Source: Candidatus Yanofskyibacteriota bacterium (lineage in GTDB: Bacteria; Patescibacteriota; Minisyncoccia; 2-02-FULL-40-12; GWA2-44-9). From it: a stretch of 43,417 bases of DNA. This document shows, piece by piece, positions 11,501-43,417 of this stretch; the first letter of the stretch is position 1; every line of letters begins with the position of its first letter. The stretch is taken from NCBI GenBank assembly GCA_023245235.1, contig JAHFKT010000005.1, forward strand, positions 3,073-46,489, in the 5' to 3' direction. A model generated the notes under the pieces. The model was not told the DNA's origin. It was given only the letters and a program-made list of their open reading frames with translations, and did no database searches. The position numbers were made by a program, and so were the translations under genes.

Positions 11501-11527
11501 AGTTTTTTGGATAAAGTGCCGTATTTG

Positions 11528-11600
11528 TGGACCGTACCAGATTCGAACTGGTGACCTCCTCATTGCAAATGAGGCGCTCTACCAACTGAGCTAACGGCCC
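11528..11600 (-). tRNA. tRNA-Ala(TGC)
   Basis: GGGCCGTTAGCTCAGTTGGTAGAGCGCCTCATTTGCAATGAGGAGGTCACCAGTTCGAATCTGGTACGGTCCA; cloverleaf folds by eye with G3:U70; CCA not encoded. Confidence 0.95.
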
Positions 11601-11676
11601 CTTGAGGGGTAACGATATGCTATATTCTATCATACAATCGGGCGCTTTAAAAGATGCGGTTACGGACGGTAAAAAA

Positions 11677-11706
11677 ACAAAAACGGCCCCAAGGGCCGTT
11701 TTTGTT
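11677..11706. terminator. Intrinsic terminator downstream of the left pilin gene
   Basis: aacaaaaacggccc caa gggccgtttttgtt. Confidence 0.8.
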
Positions 11707-11728: not shown

Positions 11729-12187
11729 TTAGCGGCTCACAGAGATCGGGTCACCGATACCGCTGGTATCGGGGGTAGCGGCAACAGTAACGCGTCCAGA
11801 GGAATCTTGGACAATTGAATAGCCGGTATCTACGCCGTCCTGAAGTCCGGACGGGTCCATGACCATTGTGGACACATAGGTGGGCACGATGCATGGCTCC
11901 AGGTTAATAAGACCCACACCGCTGCCGATATTCGTTGGCGTCGGTGGCAATGTAGCTGTGCAGGTAATGGCATCAGTTGTCCAGACACCCCTATGATCGG
12001 CCATACGCTGACCGACCGCGTTCAGGATGGTGTTGACGTTGCTCCAGCGCTGGGTATCACGCGCTTGGGCGAACTGACGGGCCGGGTTGATGGCGATGAT
12101 GACGACCGCGGCCAAGATGGCGATAATACCGATAACGACCAGGATTTCGATAAGGGTGAACCCTTTCTGATTACGGATTGTATTCAT
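11729..12187 (-). CDS. Type IV pilin, copy A
   Basis: MNTIRNQKGFTLIEILVVIGIIAILAAVVIIAINPARQF prepilin signal and helix; paralog of 18719-19162. Confidence 0.9.
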   Translation of the reverse strand: MNTIRNQKGFTLIEILVVIGIIAILAAVVIIAINPARQFAQARDTQRWSNVNTILNAVGQRMADHRGVWTTDAITCTATLPPTPTNIGSGVGLINLEPCIVPTYVSTMVMDPSGLQDGVDTGYSIVQDSSGRVTVAATPDTSGIGDPISVSR

Positions 12188-12225
12188 AAATGTAAGATAT
12201 TATTTAATTGGTTGATAAATGCTGA
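11997..12225 (-). repeat. Left arm of a 229-bp inverted repeat (pilin 5' half plus upstream 38 nt)
   Basis: By-eye alignment to 18681-18909: 226/229 identical; 12060-12225 is 166 bp with no mismatch. Confidence 0.93.
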
Positions 12226-12430
12226 CAATGATTATTTTCGCTGAGGCGCCATGCATGGAGCGACCCAACGGTATCGACCTTATTTTCACTCTTTAGTATA
12301 TCACAGTGCCGCAATCGACCTTATCCACATATCACTATTCCCCCGGATGAGCCCGAAAACCTCCGGTACCGATGATAACACGGGCTTATTATATGAAAGG
12401 AATTGCCGGCATGGTATACTTGATGGATAT

Positions 12431-13741
12431 ATGAAGGATACGAAGATCAAGCCCAAAATCACCGAATCGCCGGGGGAGATCACCAAGTCCAAAATCACCG
12501 AACCCCCCGCCGGGATCAAGGAACTCTATGAACGCATCCAGCAGATGGTCAATCTTCCTGAACCGGAAGTCTCTATCATTGAACTTGTAGATGACCTGTT
12601 TACGTATGCCTTCTTGATGCGAGCTTCAGACGTCCATTTAGAGCCCTTTGAGGATAAGCTTCTCGTCCGCATGCGCATCGACGGCATACTCAACGATATT
12701 TTCACTGTTCCGGTAGCCATGCACTCCAGTATCATCACCCGCATCAAGGTGCTCGCCGGCATGCGTACAGATGAACACCAGGCCGCCCAAGACGGCCGCT
12801 TCAAGGTGAAGATCGCCAAGCCGGAAAGAGAGTTCGATGTCCGGGTCAGTATGGTTCCGACGTACTACGGTGAAAATGGCATTATGCGGCTTCTCGCGGA
12901 ACAAACCACCATTAATTCATTGGACGATCTGGCTTTCACGGATGACGACCGCAAAAAGATCCGCCGGGCCGTCCAGACCCCCTACGGCATGATCCTGGCG
13001 ACCGGTCCCACCGGTTCGGGAAAAACCACAACGCTGTACACCATCCTCAAAGAGCTTAATACGCGCGAGGTATCCATCATCACCATCGAAGACCCTATCG
13101 AATATTCGCTGGAGGGTGTTGACCAGATACAGGTCAGTACGCGCACCGGCCTGACATTCGCGGACGGCCTGCGCTCGATCCTCCGGCAGGATCCTGACAT
13201 CATCATGGTGGGAGAGATCCGTGATGAGGAGACGGCTTCTATTGCGGTAAACGCCGCCCTGACGGGTCACAAGTTACTCTCAACTATCCACACCAACGAC
13301 GCCGCTACGACGCTGCCGCGCCTTTTAGACATGAAGATCGAGCCGTTCCTGGTGGCATCCACCATTAATGTCGCCATCGGCCAACGGCTGATCCGGATGA
13401 TCTGTGAAAACTGCAAGGAACCCCGAAAGATCACTGATGCCGAATTCGAGGCGCTCAAAGAAAACATCCCCGCCAAACTTCTGGATGATCACCATGACTT
13501 CTTTCAGGGTAAGGGCTGTCCCGTTTGCAATACAACGGGCTACCGGGGACGAATGGGGATCTACGAGATCCTTGAAATGACCGACGCCATCAGGGAAGCC
13601 ATCATGCGCCGGGCGGACGCCGGAGAGATCAAAAAGATCGCCATGGCAGCCGGTATGACCACGCTTCTGGAGGATGGTTTTTCTAAGGCGGTCAAGGGTC
13701 TTACAACCATTGAAGAAGTCCTGCGGGTAGTCCATGAATAA
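12431..13741 (+). CDS. pilB: Type IV pilus assembly ATPase PilB/GspE
   Basis: ATGPTGSGKTTTLYTIL Walker A, ITIEDPIEY, GEIRDEETASIAVNAALTGHKLLSTIHTND, CPVCNTTGYRGRMGIYE; start MKDTKIKP at 12431. Confidence 0.93.
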   Translation: MKDTKIKPKITESPGEITKSKITEPPAGIKELYERIQQMVNLPEPEVSIIELVDDLFTYAFLMRASDVHLEPFEDKLLVRMRIDGILNDIFTVPVAMHSSIITRIKVLAGMRTDEHQAAQDGRFKVKIAKPEREFDVRVSMVPTYYGENGIMRLLAEQTTINSLDDLAFTDDDRKKIRRAVQTPYGMILATGPTGSGKTTTLYTILKELNTREVSIITIEDPIEYSLEGVDQIQVSTRTGLTFADGLRSILRQDPDIIMVGEIRDEETASIAVNAALTGHKLLSTIHTNDAATTLPRLLDMKIEPFLVASTINVAIGQRLIRMICENCKEPRKITDAEFEALKENIPAKLLDDHHDFFQGKGCPVCNTTGYRGRMGIYEILEMTDAIREAIMRRADAGEIKKIAMAAGMTTLLEDGFSKAVKGLTTIEEVLRVVHE

Positions 13742-13750
13742 CAACCCACC

Positions 13751-14827
13751 ATGTCCTGGTCTGATAAAATAAACAATCTGCTCTTCCGGCTCAGCGTGAA
13801 AGATAAGGTGATGTTTGCGCGCCACATGGACCTGATGACCCGCTCCGGCATGCAGCCGCTCGATGCGTTGACCGTCCTTAAGAAGCAGACGACCAGCAAG
13901 CCGTTCCTCGTCGTCTTGGACGGCCTCATTAAATCTGTGCAGGGCGGACACTACTTGTCAGACGGAATGGAACAATACCGTGCTGTCTTCGGTGATTTTT
14001 TCATCAATCTGATCCGGGTCGGTGAAACATCGGGCACCCTGTCGGAGAACCTCCGTTACCTGGCCGACGAGCTGACCAAGCAGGCCGAGCTCCAGCAAAA
14101 GATCAAAGGCGCCATGGCGTATCCCATCGTCATTTTGGTCGCCACTCTCGGTATCACCGGAGGCATGTCGTTCTTTATCTTCCCCAAGATCTTACCGGTC
14201 CTCAAAAGCCTGAATACCACCCTGCCTCTTTCCACGCGGATCTTCATCTCCGGATCGCAGTTCATGTTCACCTATGGCCTGTGGGTGCTCCTGGCCGTCA
14301 TAGCCCTTCTCGTCGCCTTTTTCCTGCTGTTGCGCAGACGTCCCTTCAAGCTCGCCTGGCACGGTTTTATATTAAAAATACCCTACGTCGGCCTCATCTC
14401 GACCGAGATCAATATTATCGGGATGTCCCGCACGCTCAATCTTCTCCTCCGCGGCGGCATCAAGATCGTCGAAGCGCTGGATATCACCTCCAACACGCTC
14501 AGCAACCTGGTCTACCAGGATGAAATAAAACGAATCGCCGAAACCGTACGGCGTGGTAACCCGATGAGCCGGGAAATGATCGAAAATCCCCGCCTGTTCC
14601 CGTCAACCTACGCTCAGATGTCGAGCGTCGGAGAAAATACCGGAAAACTCGATGAAACAATGGTATTTCTGGCCGACTTCTATGAAAAGGAATTGGACAA
14701 TTCCACTAAGAATATGAGCAGTATTTTAGAACCGGCCATGCTTTTGTTCATGGGCCTTATTGTTCTGTTCGTTGCTGTCTCGATCATCACGCCGATCTAC
14801 TCTTTAACCCAGAGCTTGGGACGCTGA
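13751..14827 (+). CDS. pilC: Type II secretion/pilus inner-membrane platform protein PilC/GspF
   Basis: FARHMDLMTRSGMQPLDALTVLKKQT, GETSGTLSENLRYLADEL, SVGENTGKLDETMVFLADFYEKELDNSTKNMSSILEPAMLLFMGLIV. Confidence 0.93.
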   Translation: MSWSDKINNLLFRLSVKDKVMFARHMDLMTRSGMQPLDALTVLKKQTTSKPFLVVLDGLIKSVQGGHYLSDGMEQYRAVFGDFFINLIRVGETSGTLSENLRYLADELTKQAELQQKIKGAMAYPIVILVATLGITGGMSFFIFPKILPVLKSLNTTLPLSTRIFISGSQFMFTYGLWVLLAVIALLVAFFLLLRRRPFKLAWHGFILKIPYVGLISTEINIIGMSRTLNLLLRGGIKIVEALDITSNTLSNLVYQDEIKRIAETVRRGNPMSREMIENPRLFPSTYAQMSSVGENTGKLDETMVFLADFYEKELDNSTKNMSSILEPAMLLFMGLIVLFVAVSIITPIYSLTQSLGR

Positions 14828-14828
14828 T

Positions 14829-16586
14829 ATGACCTATGTTCGTGCACAATCAGGATTTACTATCCTTGAGACGGTTATCGGAATGGCGATTCTGACCATT
14901 GTCAGTACGAGCATCTTTTTTTCATACTCCAATGTGCTGGATATCATCCAGGCGACACGGTACAACAATGCCGCCCTGAGCATTATGGAGTCGCGCATCG
15001 AGACGGTTCGCAACATGGCGTACGAAGATGTCGGCGTGATCAGCGGAGTGCCCGCAGGAAAGCTCAAGCAAACAGAGGTGGTCATACTCGGTTCCATACC
15101 TTTCACACTGCATACGTATGTGCGCAATATTGATGACCCCTTTGATGGCACGCTCGGTGGTGTCCCCAATGATACCGCCCCCGCGGATTACAAACTCGTC
15201 GAATACCAGATGACCTGTGACACCTGCGTGCGGTACAAACTCCTCACGATGGCTACGTATGTTGCTCCCAAGAATCTGGAAAGCGCGGCCGGGAACGGAA
15301 ATCTATTCATACAGGTGCTCGATGCTTCCGGCTTGCCGGTCAGCGGTGCCACCGTACACGTAACCAATACCATCGTGAACCCGCACATCGATCTGACCGA
15401 TATTACCAACAGTAACGGATTACTTCAGCTCGTCGACATAAAGCCGAGCTCCGCCGGATATCACATCGTGGTCAGTAAAACAGGATACAGCAGCGACCAG
15501 ACATATCCCCCGGGCAATCCCGCACATCCGGTCAAATCTGATGCGACTGTCGCATCCCAGCAGGTTACCAACGCTACACTGTCTATCGACCACCTCGGTA
15601 CACTGGCCGTCCTCGCCCGCGATCAGTTCTGTGTACCCGCGGCAGGTTTTGATTTTCTGATGACAGGGACGAAACTGATCGGCACGTTACCGAATGTTCC
15701 GAAATACTCCTCTACCCTCACCACGGCCGGCGACGGCACATTCAACACTGCTCTTGAATGGGACACTTATTCCATACGACCGACCGATACTGCGATGGAT
15801 ATCGCCGGCACAGAGACACCTCTTTCGTTCACTTTAAACCCGGGAGCGGCTCAAAATCTGATTTGGATGACCGCCCCGCGCTCCGGCAACGGTTTATCGG
15901 TTTCCGTCACCGATCAAAACGGCCTGTCGCTCAATGACGCAAACGTACAGGTGGCAAAAACAGGCTATAGCAGTACGCAGGTAACCGGAAATTCCGCCCT
16001 CCAACAGACAGACTGGTCGTCCGGTCAATTCACGGATAAAAGCAGTTATCTGGATGCGTCCTCTCCCGGCGTGCTTACCTTGGGACTCTTGAACGGTTCA
16101 TATGCCAGCACGAGCGTTGAGTGGCTCATCTCCGATACCTATGACCTGGGTACTTCGAGCACAACCATCAAGAGTCTGAACTGGACTCCCGTCTCCCAAC
16201 CGCCGCAGGCCGGCACAGACGCTCTGCGGTTCCAGCTTGCCGCGAACAACGATAATGCTACCTGGAACTGGATCGGTCCTGACGGCACTCCCTCGTCTTA
16301 TTTCACCGCACCCGGACAAACGGTTCCGGCGGCACTGAACGGTCATCAGTACCTGCGCTATAAGGTATACTTGAGTACCACCGATTCTAAATACACTCCC
16401 ACACTGCAGGATGTGACCATCGGTTTCTCTTCCGGATGCGTCATGTCCGGTCAGGCTTACTTTAATGGGCTTACGACCGGCAGCACCTATACGATCACCG
16501 TCACCCGCACCGGTTATCAGACGAGCGTATCGACTTTCACGATCAGCGACACATGGCAACATGCGATCATCCAGCTTACCCCATGA
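14829..16586 (+). CDS. Pseudopilin-like protein with large extracellular region (carboxypeptidase-regulatory/PEGA-like segments)
   Basis: QSGFTILETVIGMAILTIVSTSIFF prepilin-type N terminus; LDASGLPVSGATVHVTNT and VTDQNGLSLNDANVQVAKTGY beta-domain motifs. Confidence 0.8.
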   Translation: MTYVRAQSGFTILETVIGMAILTIVSTSIFFSYSNVLDIIQATRYNNAALSIMESRIETVRNMAYEDVGVISGVPAGKLKQTEVVILGSIPFTLHTYVRNIDDPFDGTLGGVPNDTAPADYKLVEYQMTCDTCVRYKLLTMATYVAPKNLESAAGNGNLFIQVLDASGLPVSGATVHVTNTIVNPHIDLTDITNSNGLLQLVDIKPSSAGYHIVVSKTGYSSDQTYPPGNPAHPVKSDATVASQQVTNATLSIDHLGTLAVLARDQFCVPAAGFDFLMTGTKLIGTLPNVPKYSSTLTTAGDGTFNTALEWDTYSIRPTDTAMDIAGTETPLSFTLNPGAAQNLIWMTAPRSGNGLSVSVTDQNGLSLNDANVQVAKTGYSSTQVTGNSALQQTDWSSGQFTDKSSYLDASSPGVLTLGLLNGSYASTSVEWLISDTYDLGTSSTTIKSLNWTPVSQPPQAGTDALRFQLAANNDNATWNWIGPDGTPSSYFTAPGQTVPAALNGHQYLRYKVYLSTTDSKYTPTLQDVTIGFSSGCVMSGQAYFNGLTTGSTYTITVTRTGYQTSVSTFTISDTWQHAIIQLTP

Positions 16587-17179
16587 CCAACCGCGGATTT
16601 ACCCTTATTGAGATCCTCATCGCGATGGCGCTCACCTCTGCGATCTTGGTATTCGCCACGTACTTTATGGTGGATATTTCTAATCTCGGAACCAATCTGA
16701 GCGACAAGCTCGGGGCAGAATTTGAACTGCAGCTGACATTGGGTACCATGATCTCGGAGATCCGCTCGATGGGACCGGCCGGCAACGGAGCCTATCCGAT
16801 CGCCACGGCGACGACTACGACATTCACCTTCTACAGCGACATCGACGGCGACGGCACATTCGAACAGGTCAGATACTTCCTCCAGGGCACCACGCTCAAG
16901 AAAGGGGTCATTCATCCCATAGCAACCCAGCCGGTACAATATCCGCCCGCCAATGAAGTAATATCCGATGTCGTCCACTACATGACTCCCGGTGTTATTT
17001 TCACGTATTATCCCGCAGGATTGCCGGATGAGATGACTCCCCTCGCCGCTCCTGTCAATATATCGCAAATACGGCTTGTTAATATCATCGGTACCATCGA
17101 CAAAGACCCCGCAAAACCCCCGCCGGCGACAACGCTCTCTACGAGGGTCACGATCCGCAATCTCCGCGGCGAAATATGA
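16583..17179 (+). CDS. Prepilin-type N-terminal domain protein (minor pseudopilin)
   Basis: MTNRGFTLIEILIAMALTSAILVFATYFMVD; start inside the upstream gene's 3' end. Confidence 0.85.
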   Translation: MTNRGFTLIEILIAMALTSAILVFATYFMVDISNLGTNLSDKLGAEFELQLTLGTMISEIRSMGPAGNGAYPIATATTTTFTFYSDIDGDGTFEQVRYFLQGTTLKKGVIHPIATQPVQYPPANEVISDVVHYMTPGVIFTYYPAGLPDEMTPLAAPVNISQIRLVNIIGTIDKDPAKPPPATTLSTRVTIRNLRGEI

Positions 17180-18618
17180 AAAACACCATCAACCGACAAT
17201 CAGGCCAGATCACCCTCTACGTACTTATATTCAGCGCGGTTTCGATCATTATTCTGTCGGGATTTGTCCTGTGGGCTGATGTGAATATGCGGGCTGTCTT
17301 CCGGGACAGTGACAAGGCCCAGGCCTTCATGACGTCGGAGGCCGGCATTGAGTACTACCGGTGGCATTTGGCGCACGCTCAAAGCGATTATAAAGACGGC
17401 ACAAGCGGAGCCGGTCCGTATGTCCACCAGTTCCGCGACAAAGACGGCGCCATCATCGGCGCGTTTTCGCTGAACATCACGGCTCCCCCGGTCGGCTCGA
17501 CCGTCGTCACCCTCAACTCAACAGGAACTGTCACTATAAACCCGACGGTCAGCAAAATTATTGAAGCAAAGATGGCAATCCCATCTTTTGCGAAATATGC
17601 GGTAGCCGTCAATGATTTCGTATGGTTCGACGTGGGCACCGAGATCTTCGGGCCGATCCATTCAAACGGCGGCGTACGCGTAGACGGCCTCGCGCATAAT
17701 CTGGTCACGAGTGGCGTCGCAACGGTTAATGACCCTAACCATTCGGGACAAGCGGAGATCGGCGTCCACACTCATGTAGCTCCGATCGACCCGCTCCCAC
17801 CCGCACCTGCGCCAAACCGGCCGGATGTATTCATGGTAGGTCGGCAATACCCGGTTGCCCAGATCGACTTTGCCGGCATCTCGCAAGATCTTTCAACCAT
17901 CAAAACAAACGCCCAGTCCGGCGGATTCTACCGCAGCCCCTCCAACAGCGGCGGATACCATATTGTCCTGAAGACCAATGACACCTTTGACCTCTACAAG
18001 GTCACGAAGACCCTGAAGCCGCCCAATGGCTGTGTCACTGTCCTTGGCGAACAGGACTGGGATACCTGGACCATCCAAACCGAGACCCTGCTGGGCACGT
18101 ATGCATTTCCCGCAAATGGCCTTATCTTCATCGAAGACAATGTGTGGGTAGAAGGTCAGATCAATACTGCACGCCTTACCATCGCGGCAGCGAATTTCCC
18201 CGAAAACAAAACTAAGTACGCCCATATCACGGTCAATAATGATCTTCTGTACAGTAATTACGACGGCCAGGATGTTATAAGCCTTATTGCACAGGGAAAT
18301 TTCAACGTGGGCATGTATAGCAGCGACATCCTTCGCATTGATGCGGCCCTCATCGCCCAGAATGGCCGCGTCGGCCGCTATTACTACAAATCAGGATCCG
18401 GAAACCAGAACCGGTGCAGCCCCTACGATACCCGCCAGAAGATCACCCTATACGGCATGATATCATCCAATGAGGGCTATGGTTTTTCGTACAGCGACTT
18501 CACGGGGTATGTCACCCGCATCATTATCTTTGATCCGAATTTCCTGTACGGACCGCCGCCGAGTTTTCCGCAAACCGCTGATTTCTACACGCCCATCTTC
18601 TGGAACGAGTTGAAATAA
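17176..18618 (+). CDS. PilX-like pilus assembly protein
   Basis: RQSGQITLYVLIFSAVSIIILSGFVLWADVNMRAVFRDSDKAQAFMTSEAGIEYYRWHL; operon position. Confidence 0.7.
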   Translation: MKNTINRQSGQITLYVLIFSAVSIIILSGFVLWADVNMRAVFRDSDKAQAFMTSEAGIEYYRWHLAHAQSDYKDGTSGAGPYVHQFRDKDGAIIGAFSLNITAPPVGSTVVTLNSTGTVTINPTVSKIIEAKMAIPSFAKYAVAVNDFVWFDVGTEIFGPIHSNGGVRVDGLAHNLVTSGVATVNDPNHSGQAEIGVHTHVAPIDPLPPAPAPNRPDVFMVGRQYPVAQIDFAGISQDLSTIKTNAQSGGFYRSPSNSGGYHIVLKTNDTFDLYKVTKTLKPPNGCVTVLGEQDWDTWTIQTETLLGTYAFPANGLIFIEDNVWVEGQINTARLTIAAANFPENKTKYAHITVNNDLLYSNYDGQDVISLIAQGNFNVGMYSSDILRIDAALIAQNGRVGRYYYKSGSGNQNRCSPYDTRQKITLYGMISSNEGYGFSYSDFTGYVTRIIIFDPNFLYGPPPSFPQTADFYTPIFWNELK

Positions 18619-18680
18619 CGTATTGTTGATAATTATACTATCGTCAACCGTATACTATTATAAGGAGGGGTCGATTCATA

Positions 18681-18909
18681 TCAGCATTTATCAACCAATT
18701 AAATAATATCTTACATTTATGAATACAATCCGTAATCAGAAAGGGTTCACCCTTATCGAAATCCTGGTCGTTATCGGTATTATCGCCATCTTGGCCGCGG
18801 TCGTCATCATCGCCATCAACCCGGCCCGTCAGTTCGCCCAAGCGCGCAATACCCAGCGCTGGAGCAACGTCAACACCATCCTGAACGCGGTCGGTCAGCG
18901 CATGGCCGA
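18681..18909 (+). repeat. Right arm of the 229-bp inverted repeat
   Basis: Matches the reverse complement of 11997-12225 with 3 mismatches by eye. Confidence 0.93.
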
Positions 18910-19162
18910 CAACAGCGGCATCTGGGTGGCCACCGGCGGCTGTCCCGCACCCATCCCATCCACTCCGACCAGCATCGGCACGGCCGGATTCAATCTGGCA
19001 GTCTGCATCGTGCCCACCTATGTGTCCACGATGGTCATCGACCCTTCCGTCGGCAATCTCGCTTCGACCGGATACACTATCTTTCAAACAGCCGGAACCG
19101 GCCGTATAACAGTCGCGGCACCGTACGCAGATCTTACTGAGGTGATCTCCGTCACCCGTTAG
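18719..19162 (+). CDS. Type IV pilin, copy B
   Basis: Same N-terminal 43 aa as copy A, different C-terminal half. Confidence 0.9.
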   Translation: MNTIRNQKGFTLIEILVVIGIIAILAAVVIIAINPARQFAQARNTQRWSNVNTILNAVGQRMADNSGIWVATGGCPAPIPSTPTSIGTAGFNLAVCIVPTYVSTMVIDPSVGNLASTGYTIFQTAGTGRITVAAPYADLTEVISVTR

Positions 19163-36218: not shown

Positions 36219-38018
36219 CTAGAATCTCAGCTTCTGTTTGACCCAGCCCTTGCCGGTCGTGAATTGCCGGCTGAAGTTCCTGCCCGGAATGAACGTGGCC
36301 GGAGTATAGGCCGATATGGTGTAGTCGCCTTTAGGTACGAGGAGGAAGTAGCGGCCCCGTTCATCGGATACGGTGAAGGCAACGCGCTTGCCGTATGCAT
36401 CATTTAAGGTGATGAGGGCAAATGACAGCGGGTTACCGGTCAGGGAATCAACAACTATGCCGTAGGGCTTGGCGGCTAAGCCGGCCAGTCTCGGAATATT
36501 GACGACGCAGAAGAAGGCCAGGATCGAGATATTGAGGACATTAGGCTGGGCAATGACCGCCAGCGGAGCCGTTACTAATCCGACATAGAAGCCGATGTTC
36601 AATACCTTGATGCCGATATTATTAAGTGTGGCCGGTGGCTTTTTAGGCGGTACAAATGCCGGAGGATTTAGTTCATCCATCGGCAGGTCAAAGTGGGCCA
36701 GTCCTTTGACATCGATGGTGACGACGCCGCCGACATAGACATCAGCATAGAGAATCGTGTCATCGGACGGCACAATCCCGGCCGCCGGGAAGATGTAGCC
36801 ATCCTTGCGGGCCTTGAGCTGAATATCAATGGTCTCTTTTTCAGTCGACTCAGGAGTGACCAAGAATCCGTAGCGGCCGTCGGCGTCGCTGACCTGAGTA
36901 TCCAATACCCGGAATGAAGCATCGAGCAGTTCAACCTTAGCCAGGGGGATGGGTTTCTTGGTTCTGGCGTTGTATACGGTGCCCCAGGGTTTGCGTTTAC
37001 GCTTTAATGCAAAGATAGCCACCAGATTCTGGCGCAGAAGCTGGAGGAGAAAGCCGAAATTGCTGGCTGAACTGGCGAGCGGAACAACCGCGACAGCGGT
37101 CGAGACCGCGGTTAAGACTGCGGTCGCTCCGGCAACGACCGGTGCCGACCCCCGGACAACAGGGGCAACGGCTTTCGTTACTTCGACGGCAGCCTGGACC
37201 GTTTGATTGACCGCGTCCTGGACTCCCTGGGGCAGGAACTGGATGCCGGGAACCACAGGCGGTGTTGGCCCGCCTCCTCCCGGTCCTCCGGGTGGTGGTG
37301 TGCCTGTTGGCGTCGCCGAAGGATTGGGGGTTTCGGATGGGCCCGGAGTTGGAGATGCGGTGGGAGTGGGGGTACTGCTCGGAGTAGGCGTTGGTGATGC
37401 GGTCGGAGTTGGAGATGCGGTGGGAGTGGGGGTACTGCTCGGAGTAGGCGTTGCATAACCTCCTCCTCCGCCGGGCGGTGCTGCTCTGCTGTTGCTGGGA
37501 ACATAATCCGTATTGACTCCGTAGTCCACGGTGCCGCATGAACTGGTGTTTGAACAGTTGAAGGAGATCCAGCCCGTGTTCTCGCTCCAGGCGTAACCGG
37601 TAAAAATTCCGGTGCCATCAATCGCAACGCCGTAGTCCACGGTGCCGCATGAACTGGTGTTTGAACAGTTGAAGGAGATCCAGCCGATATTTTCGCCCCA
37701 GGCATAACCGGCAAGATTGCCGTCGGCATCAACTGAAACGCCGTAGTCCACGGTGCCGCATGAACTTGTGTTTGAACAGTTAAGAGATATCCAGCCCACA
37801 TTCTCGCCCCAGGCATATCCGGTCATTCCCGCATCAGTTATGTGAACGTCCCCCTCCGGAGTGCCGAAATTGACCCAGCCGATATTTTCGCCCCACGCGT
37901 ATTTAAATACAGAATCGATAGTTCCATCCGTTGTTGAAGCCCGGACACCGAAAGGCATCGCAAGGTAGGTTGCGATAGCCAGAAAAAGAATGATGTGTCG
38001 GGAAGTAGTTATGGGCAC
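36219..38018 (-). CDS. Surface protein with YAWGENIGW repeats, Pro/Thr linker, TM segments and carboxypeptidase-regulatory-like domains
   Basis: Signal peptide; repeated YAWGENxGWISxNCSNTSSCGTVDYGV; GTVYNARTKKPIPLAKVELLDASFRVLDTQVSDADGRYGF. Confidence 0.8.
   Translation of the reverse strand: MPITTSRHIILFLAIATYLAMPFGVRASTTDGTIDSVFKYAWGENIGWVNFGTPEGDVHITDAGMTGYAWGENVGWISLNCSNTSSCGTVDYGVSVDADGNLAGYAWGENIGWISFNCSNTSSCGTVDYGVAIDGTGIFTGYAWSENTGWISFNCSNTSSCGTVDYGVNTDYVPSNSRAAPPGGGGGYATPTPSSTPTPTASPTPTASPTPTPSSTPTPTASPTPGPSETPNPSATPTGTPPPGGPGGGGPTPPVVPGIQFLPQGVQDAVNQTVQAAVEVTKAVAPVVRGSAPVVAGATAVLTAVSTAVAVVPLASSASNFGFLLQLLRQNLVAIFALKRKRKPWGTVYNARTKKPIPLAKVELLDASFRVLDTQVSDADGRYGFLVTPESTEKETIDIQLKARKDGYIFPAAGIVPSDDTILYADVYVGGVVTIDVKGLAHFDLPMDELNPPAFVPPKKPPATLNNIGIKVLNIGFYVGLVTAPLAVIAQPNVLNISILAFFCVVNIPRLAGLAAKPYGIVVDSLTGNPLSFALITLNDAYGKRVAFTVSDERGRYFLLVPKGDYTISAYTPATFIPGRNFSRQFTTGKGWVKQKLRF
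37344..37453 (-). repeat. Exact 50-bp direct repeat, period 60 bp, in the Pro/Thr linker
   Basis: cggagttggagatgcggtgggagtgggggtactgctcggagtaggcgttg at 37344 and 37404. Confidence 0.92.
37521..37800 (-). repeat. Three tandem 111-bp repeats (37 aa) with paired cysteines
   Basis: gtagtccacggtgccgcatgaact starts at 37521, 37632 and 37743. Confidence 0.93.
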
Positions 38019-38298: not shown

Positions 38299-41200
38299 TT
38301 ATGTCGTTGGGGCTGGACTATCGCTTGGCGCCGGTGCCGGGGTAGATTGGTCGGGGGTCGGCGTAGGCGTAGGACTATCGCTCGGAGTTGGTACTGGGGT
38401 ATCAGACGGACTCGGCTCTGGCATGTCCGAAGGTGACGGCTGAATTGACGGACCCGGCGTATCTGACGGTGATACCACTGGCGGTGTCGTAGCAGCTGAA
38501 GAACAGCTCCCCTTTTGTTTATCCCACTCGCCGTTCACAATACGGACACAGTACATATCGCCGGTGGCGCTGTCCTGGATCTCCAACGATTTGGTCTGGA
38601 CAGTGCCGGCTACAAGTTTTTTGACCTGCAGGACCGCATCTTTCAGATAGCTTATGATCGCGGCCAGGATGTCCCCGTCCGAATTTTGATTCTGGATGCT
38701 GACCGCAGAAGTAAGGCTTCCTGCGTCCGGCGCCCAATAACCCATATTAACAAAAGCGAGGACTGTATCATAGGAACCGGAAGAGATGGTGCTGAACGGT
38801 TCAAGGGCGATACCGACCGTCATTCCGGCTTTGGTGGCTTTCACGGCGACACCGGGTACTGACCCGACGGTCAATCGGTCACCAACGGCTATCGGCCCGT
38901 TCTCAAGAGATACCCTGACCGGGACACGGCCGGTGAGAGCGACCGGCGGATTCGTCTTATCCCAGGCATCGCTCATTATCACTCCCGGAGCGGTTGATAT
39001 GACACCGAACAGAACTCCGGTACCATCGGCTTTTTTGATCGCCACCGCCACATCCTTGCCGGTCCTAGCCTCTGCTCCACCGCGCAGATCAACGACTTGG
39101 GTATTGCTCTGGTCGGAAACAGTCTTGTCGGGCGGCGGATTAGGGTCGAGCATCACTACATCTCCGGCCTCTACAGAGTCCGAAGACGGGTATCGTTCTG
39201 CGACGTCAGGGCCGGCATGAGTGGTGCCATAGATATCGGTTGCGTGGAGTGTCATCCAGCGGTATGAGGAGGTACCAAAATTTTGTTCGTTATCAACGCC
39301 CGGCCTGATATCGTTGGAAGCTGATTTGAAAACCATAACCGTGTCTGCGGTACCGGGCCCGCCACCGGTGAATTTAGACAACATCAGATCGTTTTGTTGT
39401 GATGCCGAGGCGAAGGCATCGCCGCGAGCCGACCAGTTCCACAGCTTATCACCGGTATCATTGAATCCGCTGAGATTGGAGTCCTTGGTGAACCAGTTCC
39501 AGTCACGCTGGGAAGGGACGTCTCCTTTTTGGTCAGTGATGAACCCGCTCTGAGTGAAGAGCGTGCCGGATCCGTCAATCCGGAGATTATTGGCGCCACT
39601 GCCGACGGAGAAGAGCCCTTGGGGTGCGGTAGTACCGATGCCGACGCTGCCTGACGCGGTGATGACGAACGGACCCGAGGTTGAATAAAGAGCATAGTTT
39701 TCAGTCACGCTGTCTGCTATGCCGGTCTGGTCATCGATAAATATTCCGTAATTACTCCCGACGGTTCCCGACCCGTCATGGTCAGGCCGGCCGACATAAA
39801 GACCCGTCATTTCGCTCACATTACCAGAACCCTTCTGGTTAACATAAGTGTTAATACTGTGCACGGACAGCAAGCCTCCGGAACCGGTGTTTTCTGCGTC
39901 TCCCTCAATTGCGACAATGCCCTTAGTGCCCGAACTGGTGTTGGTAGAAGTCGCAAATCCGTATAGGCCGACGAGGGGTTGAGTCAGATCATTGCTCTCG
40001 GCAACACTCATCAGGCTGGTTCCGCGGCCGGCCCCATTATTATCATCCAACGAAGCGAAAACATTACTGCCGAAATCTATGTATCCTTGTGTCTCGGCAG
40101 TAAAGTCGTTATATGAAGGTCCGGAGTACGTAATAAGGCCGGTAGTGCCGCGGACCTCAAGTTTGGTATTTGCCGGGTCTGCTGATGCGCTTGCCGTTCC
40201 AATGCCGACAAGGCCGTTCTCAAGGACCGCCAACCTCGTATTGGAAGCCGAGGCGATAGTGAAGAAGGATTTGCCGTTGCCAACCAAGTCGCCGGTAATG
40301 TTCAATATTGCGCGGGGGCTGGTCGTGCCGATACCGATGTTGCCGCCGGCAGCAATGTAAAAGCGCGGGGTACCGGCAGTTTGCAAAGCCAGACTGCCGG
40401 CGTTGCCGCCACCCACAGCTGAAGTGCCGAACGATAACGAAGAGCCGGAGCCGAAGGTTATCTGACCGAGGGTGTAACTGGCACCTGCGCCTCCGGTGCC
40501 CGTTGTTGAAGTTATATTGAAAGAACCCGGTCCCACATTAACGCTCTCCCAGCGATAATTATTACTGCCAAGAGAGTAGGTATTATCTGTGCTGGGATCA
40601 AAATCACCGGAGATGGAGGCAGCGATGCCGAAGGTGGTTATATTAGCGGTGGTCGCAGTCAATTGGTTAATGCCGGTAATATTATTACTCCCGCCGGTGA
40701 TGGTGCCGCCGAGCGTGAAAGCGTTGAGCTGAAGCGTGCCTGAAGATTGAATAACATTAGTGCCTCCGCCGTTGAAGGTCAGGCCGTTACCGGAGCCACC
40801 TATCGTTACCGCTCCGTTCAGAAATGTACTGCCCGCGACCTCAAGCTTATAGCCGGGAGTCGTTGTGCCGATGCCGACATTGCCGCCGGTGAACAGTGCC
40901 GAGTATGTCGGGTTGGTGAAGGTCCATGATCCCGAGATAGTCTGGGAGATACTGCGGGAAGCGGGGCCGTTGATGTAGTCCAGGGCGATGGATGAGAGGG
41001 GTGAGGCATTGGTGACATTGAAGGCGCTTTCACTGAAGGAAAGCGAAGATACATCGGTGAATGAGCCGCCGAACTCTCTGACGCCGATCATGGTACCGCT
41101 GCCTCCGCCGGTGGGCGTACCGCAGCCAAAGAGACCACCGGTCCATTGGAGGAAGTCAGAGCCGTTGCATGTCGAAAGTCCGCCGCTGAAGTATTGCGAG

Positions 41201-43417
41201 GCGGAGGCGGCGCCGACTACTTCGAACTTGGCGTCGATATTGGTCGCGCCGATACCGACATTGCCGGTCTGATCGATCCTCATTCTTTCACTCAGTGACC
41301 GTAATGTTGTTCCGCTTGCGCCGGCCTGTGCCGTAGAGAATATGATACTTCCGCCGGCCCCCGCGCCTGTCGGCTGGCCACCGGCGATGCCGATATCACC
41401 ACCGCCGATATCCGTGCCCACACCCGCAGTGCCGTTAATAGTGTACAGCGTCGGCGCGGAAGCAGAAGCGCCCTTGCCGAAGTAAACGTTATCTATGGAC
41501 CGGGCTCCCGTGCTAGCGCCGGCAACGAAAATATTCGCGGTATTAGCATGAGCGCCACTGCCCAAAGCAATGGAAGCGTACCCGTTGCTTTGGGCGCTTT
41601 CGCCTATGGCGACACCCGCTTGGTCGGTTACCTTTGCATTGGGACCTATGGCTATGCCGTTGTTGGTTCCGGCGTTAGTATTACCGCCTATAGCTATGCC
41701 CCCGCTGGCGGTATTGGCGCTGCTGCCGATAGAAACTCCGGTACCGACCGTACTGGCGCCTATACTGATACCTCCGGAGCTGGTGTTCGTGGCACTGTAA
41801 CCGATAACGATCGCTGAGTCCTTAGCCACCACATTGTGGCCGATGCCGATGGCCTGGGATAGGTTGGACGTGACCCCCGTTATGTTATCGCCGATGAATA
41901 TTCCCCCGCCTCCGCCCGTTGAAGGGCTCAGATTGGTTCCCGCACCTATGATGATCCAATCCGGCGTGTTATTTATCGAGTGCATGGAGCTGTTATAACC
42001 GATCAGGGTAACTTTACCGGCGCCGGTATATCCCTTTGAATCTTTTCCGATGACAACGCTGTCGGAACTGGAGGCCTGGGCGCCAAATCCGAACTTTTCG
42101 CTGTTTGCACCGGTTCCCGGACTGGTGAACATGGATGCCGAAGCGGTACCGGCTATCTCAAACTTGGCATCGATATTGGTCGTTCCGATGCCGACATTGC
42201 CGGCCGAATCTATTCTCATCCGCTCTTTGTTCGCCGCATAGCCTCCCGCGTAGAAGCGGAGGTCGCCGGCGGCTTCATAGGCAACGATGTCAAAACCGGT
42301 TCCGGTGGCCGGGGCGGTTGAAATATAACTGCGTCCGGCTCCGAAAGAACCGTAGTTTACCGGGCTCGCTCCGAGATATGAGACGATGGTTCCCGCTTTG
42401 GCGGCATACTCAGCATAGGCATTCGCCGTGTCGGAGGGGTTGTAGAGCAAGCTCTGAACTTCTCCGTCAGTGCTCCGGTACGCTTCAAGTAATTGAGTGG
42501 GGCTGGTTGTGCCGATGCCGATGTTACCGAACTGATCGATCCTCATTCTTTCGTTCAATGACCTGAGCGTCGTTCCGCTTGAGCCGGCCTGTGCCGTAGA
42601 AAATGTAATATTTCCGCCGATCCCCGCTCCGGTCGGCTGGCCTCCGGCGAAAGAAAGACTTGCGCCGGAAATATCGGTTCCGCTTCCGCTGGTACCATGG
42701 ATTGTATAGTCATACGGGGTTGTGGAGATAACACCGGTACCGAAATAAACGTCCTCGATCGGCCCCTGCACGCTATCACCCAAAGCGCCCGCCACAAATT
42801 GACTGACGGCAGTGGCGGTGGACGCTTTACCGATAACGATGCTCGGAAAGTTAGTAACCGCACTTGCGCCGATAGCGGTACCGCCGTTAGAAACAGAGTG
42901 GTTGCCTATCGCGATACTATTGAAACTATTGGTAACTTGAGCATCCAGACCGATAACCAGATTATCATAGGAGTTTTGCTGTGTTTTGGCGCCGTTGCCG
43001 ATGATGATATTATTTCCGGCAACTGTGCTTGCGCTTTCACTGGCTAAATTTCCTATCAAAATACTTGCCGAATTACGGCTCACCGCACCGTATCCGACAA
43101 CGATGGAATCTTGGCCTGAACTAAAGCCCTCTACCGAAACGTCCGCATTTTTCCCGATGGCCAGAGACCGGGCTCCTGCCGCCAGAGCACCCAAGCCGAA
43201 TTTTTCGGAATCCACGCCAGTTCCGGGACTAGTGAACTCTGATGCCGAAGCGATGCCGGCTATCTCAAGTTTGGCGTCGACATCGGTCGTCCCCACCCCC
43301 ACATTACCGCTCTGTCCTATATATAGGCGTGGTGTGCCGGCGGTCAGAAGAGCCAGGGTGCCGGTAGAGCCTGAACCTACCGCGGAAGTGCCGAATGATA
43401 AGGAAGAACCTGAACCG
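38299..43417 (-). CDS. Giant repetitive surface/adhesin-like protein (partial; N terminus beyond window)
   Basis: Frame is open to the window end (GSGSSLSFGTSAVGSGSTGTLALLTAGTPRLYIGQSGNVGVGTT); repeated ERMRIDxxGNxGIGTT units, YadA-head-like SIALGSGAHA/AIGxxA repeats, C-terminal PSDTP-rich tail. Confidence 0.85.
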   Translation of the reverse strand, partial: GSGSSLSFGTSAVGSGSTGTLALLTAGTPRLYIGQSGNVGVGTTDVDAKLEIAGIASASEFTSPGTGVDSEKFGLGALAAGARSLAIGKNADVSVEGFSSGQDSIVVGYGAVSRNSASILIGNLASESASTVAGNNIIIGNGAKTQQNSYDNLVIGLDAQVTNSFNSIAIGNHSVSNGGTAIGASAVTNFPSIVIGKASTATAVSQFVAGALGDSVQGPIEDVYFGTGVISTTPYDYTIHGTSGSGTDISGASLSFAGGQPTGAGIGGNITFSTAQAGSSGTTLRSLNERMRIDQFGNIGIGTTSPTQLLEAYRSTDGEVQSLLYNPSDTANAYAEYAAKAGTIVSYLGASPVNYGSFGAGRSYISTAPATGTGFDIVAYEAAGDLRFYAGGYAANKERMRIDSAGNVGIGTTNIDAKFEIAGTASASMFTSPGTGANSEKFGFGAQASSSDSVVIGKDSKGYTGAGKVTLIGYNSSMHSINNTPDWIIIGAGTNLSPSTGGGGGIFIGDNITGVTSNLSQAIGIGHNVVAKDSAIVIGYSATNTSSGGISIGASTVGTGVSIGSSANTASGGIAIGGNTNAGTNNGIAIGPNAKVTDQAGVAIGESAQSNGYASIALGSGAHANTANIFVAGASTGARSIDNVYFGKGASASAPTLYTINGTAGVGTDIGGGDIGIAGGQPTGAGAGGSIIFSTAQAGASGTTLRSLSERMRIDQTGNVGIGATNIDAKFEVVGAASASQYFSGGLSTCNGSDFLQWTGGLFGCGTPTGGGSGTMIGVREFGGSFTDVSSLSFSESAFNVTNASPLSSIALDYINGPASRSISQTISGSWTFTNPTYSALFTGGNVGIGTTTPGYKLEVAGSTFLNGAVTIGGSGNGLTFNGGGTNVIQSSGTLQLNAFTLGGTITGGSNNITGINQLTATTANITTFGIAASISGDFDPSTDNTYSLGSNNYRWESVNVGPGSFNITSTTGTGGAGASYTLGQITFGSGSSLSFGTSAVGGGNAGSLALQTAGTPRFYIAAGGNIGIGTTSPRAILNITGDLVGNGKSFFTIASASNTRLAVLENGLVGIGTASASADPANTKLEVRGTTGLITYSGPSYNDFTAETQGYIDFGSNVFASLDDNNGAGRGTSLMSVAESNDLTQPLVGLYGFATSTNTSSGTKGIVAIEGDAENTGSGGLLSVHSINTYVNQKGSGNVSEMTGLYVGRPDHDGSGTVGSNYGIFIDDQTGIADSVTENYALYSTSGPFVITASGSVGIGTTAPQGLFSVGSGANNLRIDGSGTLFTQSGFITDQKGDVPSQRDWNWFTKDSNLSGFNDTGDKLWNWSARGDAFASASQQNDLMLSKFTGGGPGTADTVMVFKSASNDIRPGVDNEQNFGTSSYRWMTLHATDIYGTTHAGPDVAERYPSSDSVEAGDVVMLDPNPPPDKTVSDQSNTQVVDLRGGAEARTGKDVAVAIKKADGTGVLFGVISTAPGVIMSDAWDKTNPPVALTGRVPVRVSLENGPIAVGDRLTVGSVPGVAVKATKAGMTVGIALEPFSTISSGSYDTVLAFVNMGYWAPDAGSLTSAVSIQNQNSDGDILAAIISYLKDAVLQVKKLVAGTVQTKSLEIQDSATGDMYCVRIVNGEWDKQKGSCSSAATTPPVVSPSDTPGPSIQPSPSDMPEPSPSDTPVPTPSDSPTPTPTPDQSTPAPAPSDSPAPTT

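Follow-up and report, generated by a model that had tools for sequence, protein, structure and literature searches.

The 43,417-nucleotide stretch of DNA analysed here (the window) belongs to a metagenome-assembled genome (MAG) of an uncultured, ultra-small member of the Patescibacteria, 826 kb in 42 contigs and 95%-complete, whose relatives among public genomes are Candidatus Yanofskybacteria, Azambacteria, Wolfebacteria, Harrisonbacteria and similar Patescibacteria. It contains a pilus-assembly operon with a major-pilin-like gene at either end, pilinA and pilinB, the 5′ ends of which point inward (Table 1). pilinA lies between a tRNA-Ala gene and pilB. The start of pilB, previously placed at 12251, is most likely at 12431, following a putative −10 element, so that the divergently oriented pilinA and pilB are ~240 bp apart. 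Of the genes that the first-pass annotation had recognised inside the pair, pilB and pilC stand as described; its three pseudopilins are better separated into two class III (N_methyl) pilin-like proteins and one PilX-like protein.

Table 1 Features of the pilus locus, in window coordinates
Feature	Position	Strand	Description
tRNA-Ala(UGC)	11527..11600	-	Directly downstream of pilinA
Intrinsic terminator of pilinA	11676..11706	-	
pilinA	11729..12187	-	Additional major pilin-like gene (152 aa), divergent in the head and identical to pilinB in the 5′ half
Second island, pilinA	11848..11893	-	Around the conserved cysteine (CIVPTYVSTMV.DPS)
Arm A	11997..12225	-	38 nt of leader and codons 1-64 of pilinA
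Leader A	12226..12303	-	TATACT, AAGGTCGAT, hairpin (CTGGGTCGCTCCATGCATGGCGCCTCAGC) common to the operon pilins of sister genera
pilB, assembly ATPase	12431..13741	+	Probable start 12431, after TGGTATACT -10 element
pilC, platform protein	13751..14827	+	
Minor pilin-like protein	14829..16586	+	585 aa; N_methyl and carboxypeptidase-regulatory-like domain
Minor pilin-like protein	16553..17179	+	208 aa; N_methyl
PilX-like protein	17176..18618	+	480 aa; no family match, no recognisable N_methyl motif
Leader B	18610..18680	+	Two TATACT boxes, GGTCGAT, no hairpin
Arm B	18681..18909	+	38 nt of leader and codons 1-64 of pilinB
pilinB	18719..19162	+	Operon-terminal pilin, 147 aa; resident, position conserved in relatives
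Second island, pilinB	19004..19049	+	Partner of 11848..11893

The two pilin genes share a pair of inverted arms whose extent and content, a short leader end and 64 codons in each gene, are as first annotated. The copies differ at exactly 3 positions (226/229 identical; mismatches at 12059, 12058 and 12005 against 18847, 18848 and 18901), and the first 166 positions, among them all of the non-coding 38 nt, form a mismatch-free core. An exact inverted 166-mer is expected by chance at about 1e-91, and a chance origin is excluded. A repeat search extends the arm pair to 245 nt at 96% and detects a second inverted pair, 46 nt at 93%, around a conserved cysteine; BLASTN merges arms and island into a single alignment (11848–12225 with 18681–19049) at 86%. 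No further copies of the arm were found elsewhere in the genome.

Both proteins have the characteristics of type IV pilins with a class III signal, namely a GFxxxE N_methyl motif and an N-terminal hydrophobic helix. The two match PF07963 at 1e-9 and 9e-10 and TIGR02532 above its cut-off, and sequence profiles match Geobacter and Neisseria pilins in the PDB. An AlphaFold model of the pilin (mean pLDDT 86) consists of a single helix, residues 12–64, followed by a head. Foldseek returned no confident match for this model, only a weak one to PulG (E 0.49), so that the pilin identity rests on sequence. The end of the arm coincides with the end of the predicted helix, and the arm encodes the assembly helix of the model.

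The two leaders are unlike. TATACT boxes and a GGTCGA element lie upstream of both genes; the element occurs upstream of 33 of the 63 pilins examined, mostly as AAGGTCGA. In pilinA and in three sister loci (L037–L039) the element precedes a nearly invariant hairpin, which is absent from pilinB, where the arm starts a few nucleotides after GGTCGAT. No known RNA family was matched in the leader. As the leaders differ, the two ends of the intervening segment are not equivalent, and inversion would place each head behind a different leader. A test for a single promoter found TATACT boxes before both pilins, so that neither is clearly silent, and the leader hairpin at pilinA only.

In many relatives the operon is conserved and runs pilB–pilC–minor pilin–minor pilin–pilX–pilin, the pilin following the assembly genes, and in the nearer relatives this operon pilin is succeeded by an Fn-like gene of 570 aa (Fn570). 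In the sister loci for which both flanks are available (L037 and L038), as in the window, HppA and RmuC genes lie to the left of the operon and Fn570, UDG and transketolase genes to its right. Among the loci examined, pilinA was found in this genome only, and none of the relatives carries a pilin ahead of pilB; the inverted arrangement is absent from the other loci, and where several pilins occur in one of these they stand in tandem. This synteny identifies pilinB as the resident gene, pilinA as the extra one and the present operon orientation as ancestral. A fixed inversion relative to the sister genera was considered and rejected, the orientation of the operon matching theirs. Together, pilinA and tRNA-Ala occupy the place of a gene present in sister genera. 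The tRNA-Ala(UGC) gene, which lies to the left of the operon here and to its right in three sister loci, indicates by its position that a rearrangement across the operon has occurred; neither one inversion between the arms nor two simply account for its move. A search of a viral collection gave no contigs of the same species.

Synonymous sites separate the arms sharply from the remainder of the genes. Among codons for shared amino acids, 57 of 60 are identical in codons 1–64, 11 of 13 in the cysteine island and 7 of 26 elsewhere in the head (Fisher 1e-10 and 0.0015). The comparison of substitution patterns proposed by the first-pass annotation gives a pilinA/pilinB dS of 1.95 over the 3′ part but 0.08 over the 5′ part, with a sharp boundary between them. 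That annotation had also allowed that a recent simple duplication would explain the repeat equally well; this no longer holds, as synonymous sites in the 3′ halves are saturated and a single duplication date cannot yield a dS of 0.08 in the arms and ~2 in the heads. The 5′/3′ contrast is equalled or exceeded by 0.06% of 1642 between-genome pilin pairs. Synonymous conservation is slightly higher in the 5′ half between genomes too (mean log odds 0.21), and codon constraint was rejected as the cause of the 5′ identity because this excess is weak and the 38-nt leader is non-coding. In the cysteine island, the codons of the pair match those of other genera at only 3–5 of 10–13 sites, and the near-identity there is specific to pilinA and pilinB. 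Their heads share 50% of amino acids, against 66% between pilinB and a pilin from another family (L035), and are as far apart as pilins of different genera. In a weakly supported tree of head domains the two are not sisters.

A near-identical 5′ half and cysteine island, with saturated divergence separating the two, indicate that old alleles have recently exchanged DNA, and exchange between the arms is the sole explanation considered that fits the identical arms, the saturated head and the second island. Recent exchange between two old pilin alleles, most likely through RecA-type gene conversion, is well supported by this pattern. The genome encodes RecA (PF00154, E 2e-135), and RecA gene conversion is the economical mechanism; we infer both conversion and its recurrence. 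Our preferred reading, to which we assign a probability of roughly 0.7 from this one MAG, is that old divergent alleles have been homogenised by RecA-type conversion at the helix and the cysteine island, with the heads left divergent. On this reading, recombination has recently copied the leader end and the whole assembly helix (codons 1–64) between the two alleles, which face apart at the ends of the assembly operon, as well as a short tract around the conserved cysteine, and the exposed head segments have stayed divergent. If the same reaction gave a crossover, 6.5–6.9 kb, from pilB to pilX, would be inverted and the heads swapped between leader A, with its hairpin intact, and leader B, from which it has been lost, so that head and leader would be paired anew with no gene broken. 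A single past exchange and a recurring one would leave nearly the same picture here; only the separate 46-bp island speaks for more than a single tract.

Other pilin loci carry the same signature. Two tandem pairs (L043 and L046) are homogenised in the 5′ part in like manner (Fisher 9e-7 and 2e-5), and a third locus (L040) has three tandem pilins with 5′ stretches 91–96% identical and different heads, one of them with an insert of about 180 residues. The pilin arrays of L053 and L063 are not homogenised and that of L102 weakly so. The contrast of the first three loci with L053 and L063 indicates that exchange among pilin paralogues recurs in the class and is not universal; two or three relatives carry this signature independently in their tandem pilins.

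This recurrence bears on an unlikely alternative, a one-off chimera in which the resident 5′ half was copied once onto a divergent head from a related species and the locus has been static since. The head of pilinA is not closest to that of pilinB, pilinA and tRNA-Ala replace a gene of the sister genera, and one recent event could also produce 3 differences in 229 positions. However, the second island (11/13 against 7/26) requires an extra tract, and the finding of the same pattern in unrelated tandem pairs suggests a recurring process. As for pilinA itself, its head may alternatively have come from a relative, with 5′ conversion afterwards, a history that the weak head tree does not separate from that of an old duplicate.

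The first-pass annotation had proposed a variation system working through inversion or gene conversion. Its conversion part stands, with identity restricted to the 5′ half plus a single 3′ island; its inversion part is mechanically possible, given the inverted arms, the 166-bp perfect core and RecA, but the operon is oriented as in sister genera. Since crossing over of inverted repeats within one chromosome produces an inversion, flips are expected at some rate; their use as a switch is possible, though unproven. An active switch like those of Campylobacter fetus sap and Moraxella pilin, in which the arms would flip pilB to pilX often enough for a programmed two-state change of head, would suit the geometry, with inward 5′ ends, arms inside coding sequence at a domain boundary, the machinery and both leaders within and the heads outside. 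The reading frame would survive a flip and leaders A and B are unlike; the homogenised arms imply that recombination between them happens or has happened, RecA being present; and the position of tRNA-Ala(UGC), on opposite sides of the operon here and in three sister loci, records a rearrangement across it. Against such a switch stand the operon orientation shared with sister genera, the absence of the inverted pair from relatives, the TATACT boxes at both pilins, neither of which is clearly silent, and a search of the 95%-complete genome for IS110/Piv proteins, in which no DEDD recombinase of this family (PF01548) was found; nor does a simple flip between the arms explain the tRNA move. We consider a switch of this kind improbable. 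That the operon as a whole is invertible, recombination of the opposed pilin 5′ halves flipping the machinery and heritably switching the displayed head, is likewise doubtful, and slightly more so.

Misjoining of the repeat during metagenome assembly is very improbable: the 166-bp core approximates the length of a short read and the MAG is in 42 contigs, but synteny with sister genera extends over both outer flanks and the operon on unbroken contigs, the pilins differ in head, leader and terminator, and a misjoin could only have set a wrong orientation, not created the pair. Least probable of all is a recent duplication of the entire pilin gene, static thereafter, which would give the high arm identity, leader included, but not heads at a dS of about 2 beside arms at 0.08.

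Type IV pili are leading candidates for host attachment in Patescibacteria, and to our knowledge few surface-variation systems have been described in these bacteria; in the open-access literature we found no paper linking the candidate phyla radiation, pilin and phase variation. The bacterium studied here probably recombines this pilin stretch and may flip it, changing its surface fibre. Recombination between pilin alleles with a constant helix and a free head would be a cheap route to a change of host range or antigen in a 0.8-Mb genome, and an invertible operon, if real, would be a heritable switch of the host-touching fibre in host-dependent cells. The two junction sequences of a flip constitute an exact and easily tested prediction.

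Among known systems, the T4P-2 pilus of the Saccharibacteria member TM7x has large PilX-type minor pilins, and normal binding to the host requires its major pilin PilA2 as well as PilX2 (PMC12206443). It shares such minor pilins with the present system and is likewise a second pilus system of a Patescibacterium; its locus layout differs and pilin recombination is not described there. By analogy, the contribution of PilA2 and PilX2 suggests a possible host-contact role for this pilus. In Moraxella, about 2 kb of pilin DNA is inverted by a dedicated recombinase, Piv, a relative of IS110. The inverted repeats of Moraxella bovis and Moraxella lacunata lie in pilin coding DNA and inversion swaps the C-terminal end of the expressed pilin (PMC9585708). 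The present locus likewise has inverted repeats in pilin coding DNA that would exchange heads on inversion, a likeness of geometry only that appears second-closest after Campylobacter fetus sap; here 6.5 kb of machinery would flip, the homology is long and no IS110-family recombinase was found in the genome. In C. fetus sap, an invertible segment of ~6 kb, with the export genes and the promoter inside it, is flanked by opposed structural genes whose 5′ ends are conserved. The promoter is situated between sapC, the transporter gene, and a sap homologue, and transcription is limited to the homologue downstream of it (PMC3887049); a recA-disrupted strain has served as a phase-locked mutant, with some inversion occurring without RecA (PMC5634654). 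In geometry this is the closest match, opposed homologues with conserved 5′ ends bracketing the export machinery and leaders, but the present locus involves a pilin and pilus machinery rather than an S-layer and type I export, each pilin has its own leader and inversion is putative. By mechanism, the closest match is Neisseria pilE/pilS, in which a constant 5′ assembly helix, a variable head and cys1/cys2 islands of homology support RecA-type conversion (PMC6796969). The constant helix part and conserved cysteine island recur here, although pilS loci are promoterless silent cassettes lacking the constant region, whereas these are two full-length genes with leaders that share it; a head-domain search of the genome matched only these two genes and no silent 5′-truncated donor cassettes. 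As defining features of the pilS and Piv systems are missing, the locus belongs to neither; it unites Neisseria-like conversion islands with C. fetus-like opposed genes around export machinery.

A short 5′-leader element, GGTCGA, most commonly in the form AAGGTCGA, precedes pilin genes across the class (33 of 63), including those of loci L035–L039, L067–L069 and others, and often lies a short way downstream of a TATAAT-like box. In the nearest relatives it is followed by a conserved hairpin of one of two different types; a comparison of the leader element and hairpins with Rfam returned no family match.

The tRNA-Ala(UGC) gene, for which the genome holds no second match at more than 80% identity, lies on opposite sides of the operon in the window and in three sister loci, which amounts to a relocation across the operon. 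Derivation of this arrangement by inversion of the pilB–pilX segment between the repeat arms was attempted and did not succeed.

Coordinates of the features discussed (window unless a locus or contig is named)
Feature	Position	Strand	Remarks
tRNA-Ala(UGC)	11527-11600	-	left of operon, adjoins pilinA (extra pilin)
tRNA-Ala(UGC), sister loci	L037 12717-12791; L038 12719-12793; L039 12677-12750		right of operon, beside tRNA-Ile
GGTCGA element; hairpin	12273-12281; 12226-12272	-	leader comparison across loci
Three direct repeats	L074 4666-4965, 6531-6814, 7277-7576		~300 nt each, 85-98%
Three tandem pilins	L040 879-2859		Candidatus Azambacteria MEYR01000001.1
Second type IV pilus locus	G000:C15:29728-29916 and around		L075
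Two long surface-like proteins, internal repeats	36219-38018; 38299-43302	-	

Elsewhere in the source genome, another contig encodes pilB and pilC homologues together with distant pilins, and the genome therefore has two pilus systems. Within the window, the internal repeats of the surface-like protein pair include GYAWGENxGWISxNCSNTSSCGTVDYGV; one of the two proteins, 1667 aa long, has repeated modules.

The direct repeats of L074, from another genome of the same order, are close to pilC and the pilin gene there. The tandem pilins of L040, the second of which is broken by an assembly gap of N, have nearly identical 5′ halves. In the third, about 180 extra residues are inserted ahead of the cysteine loop.
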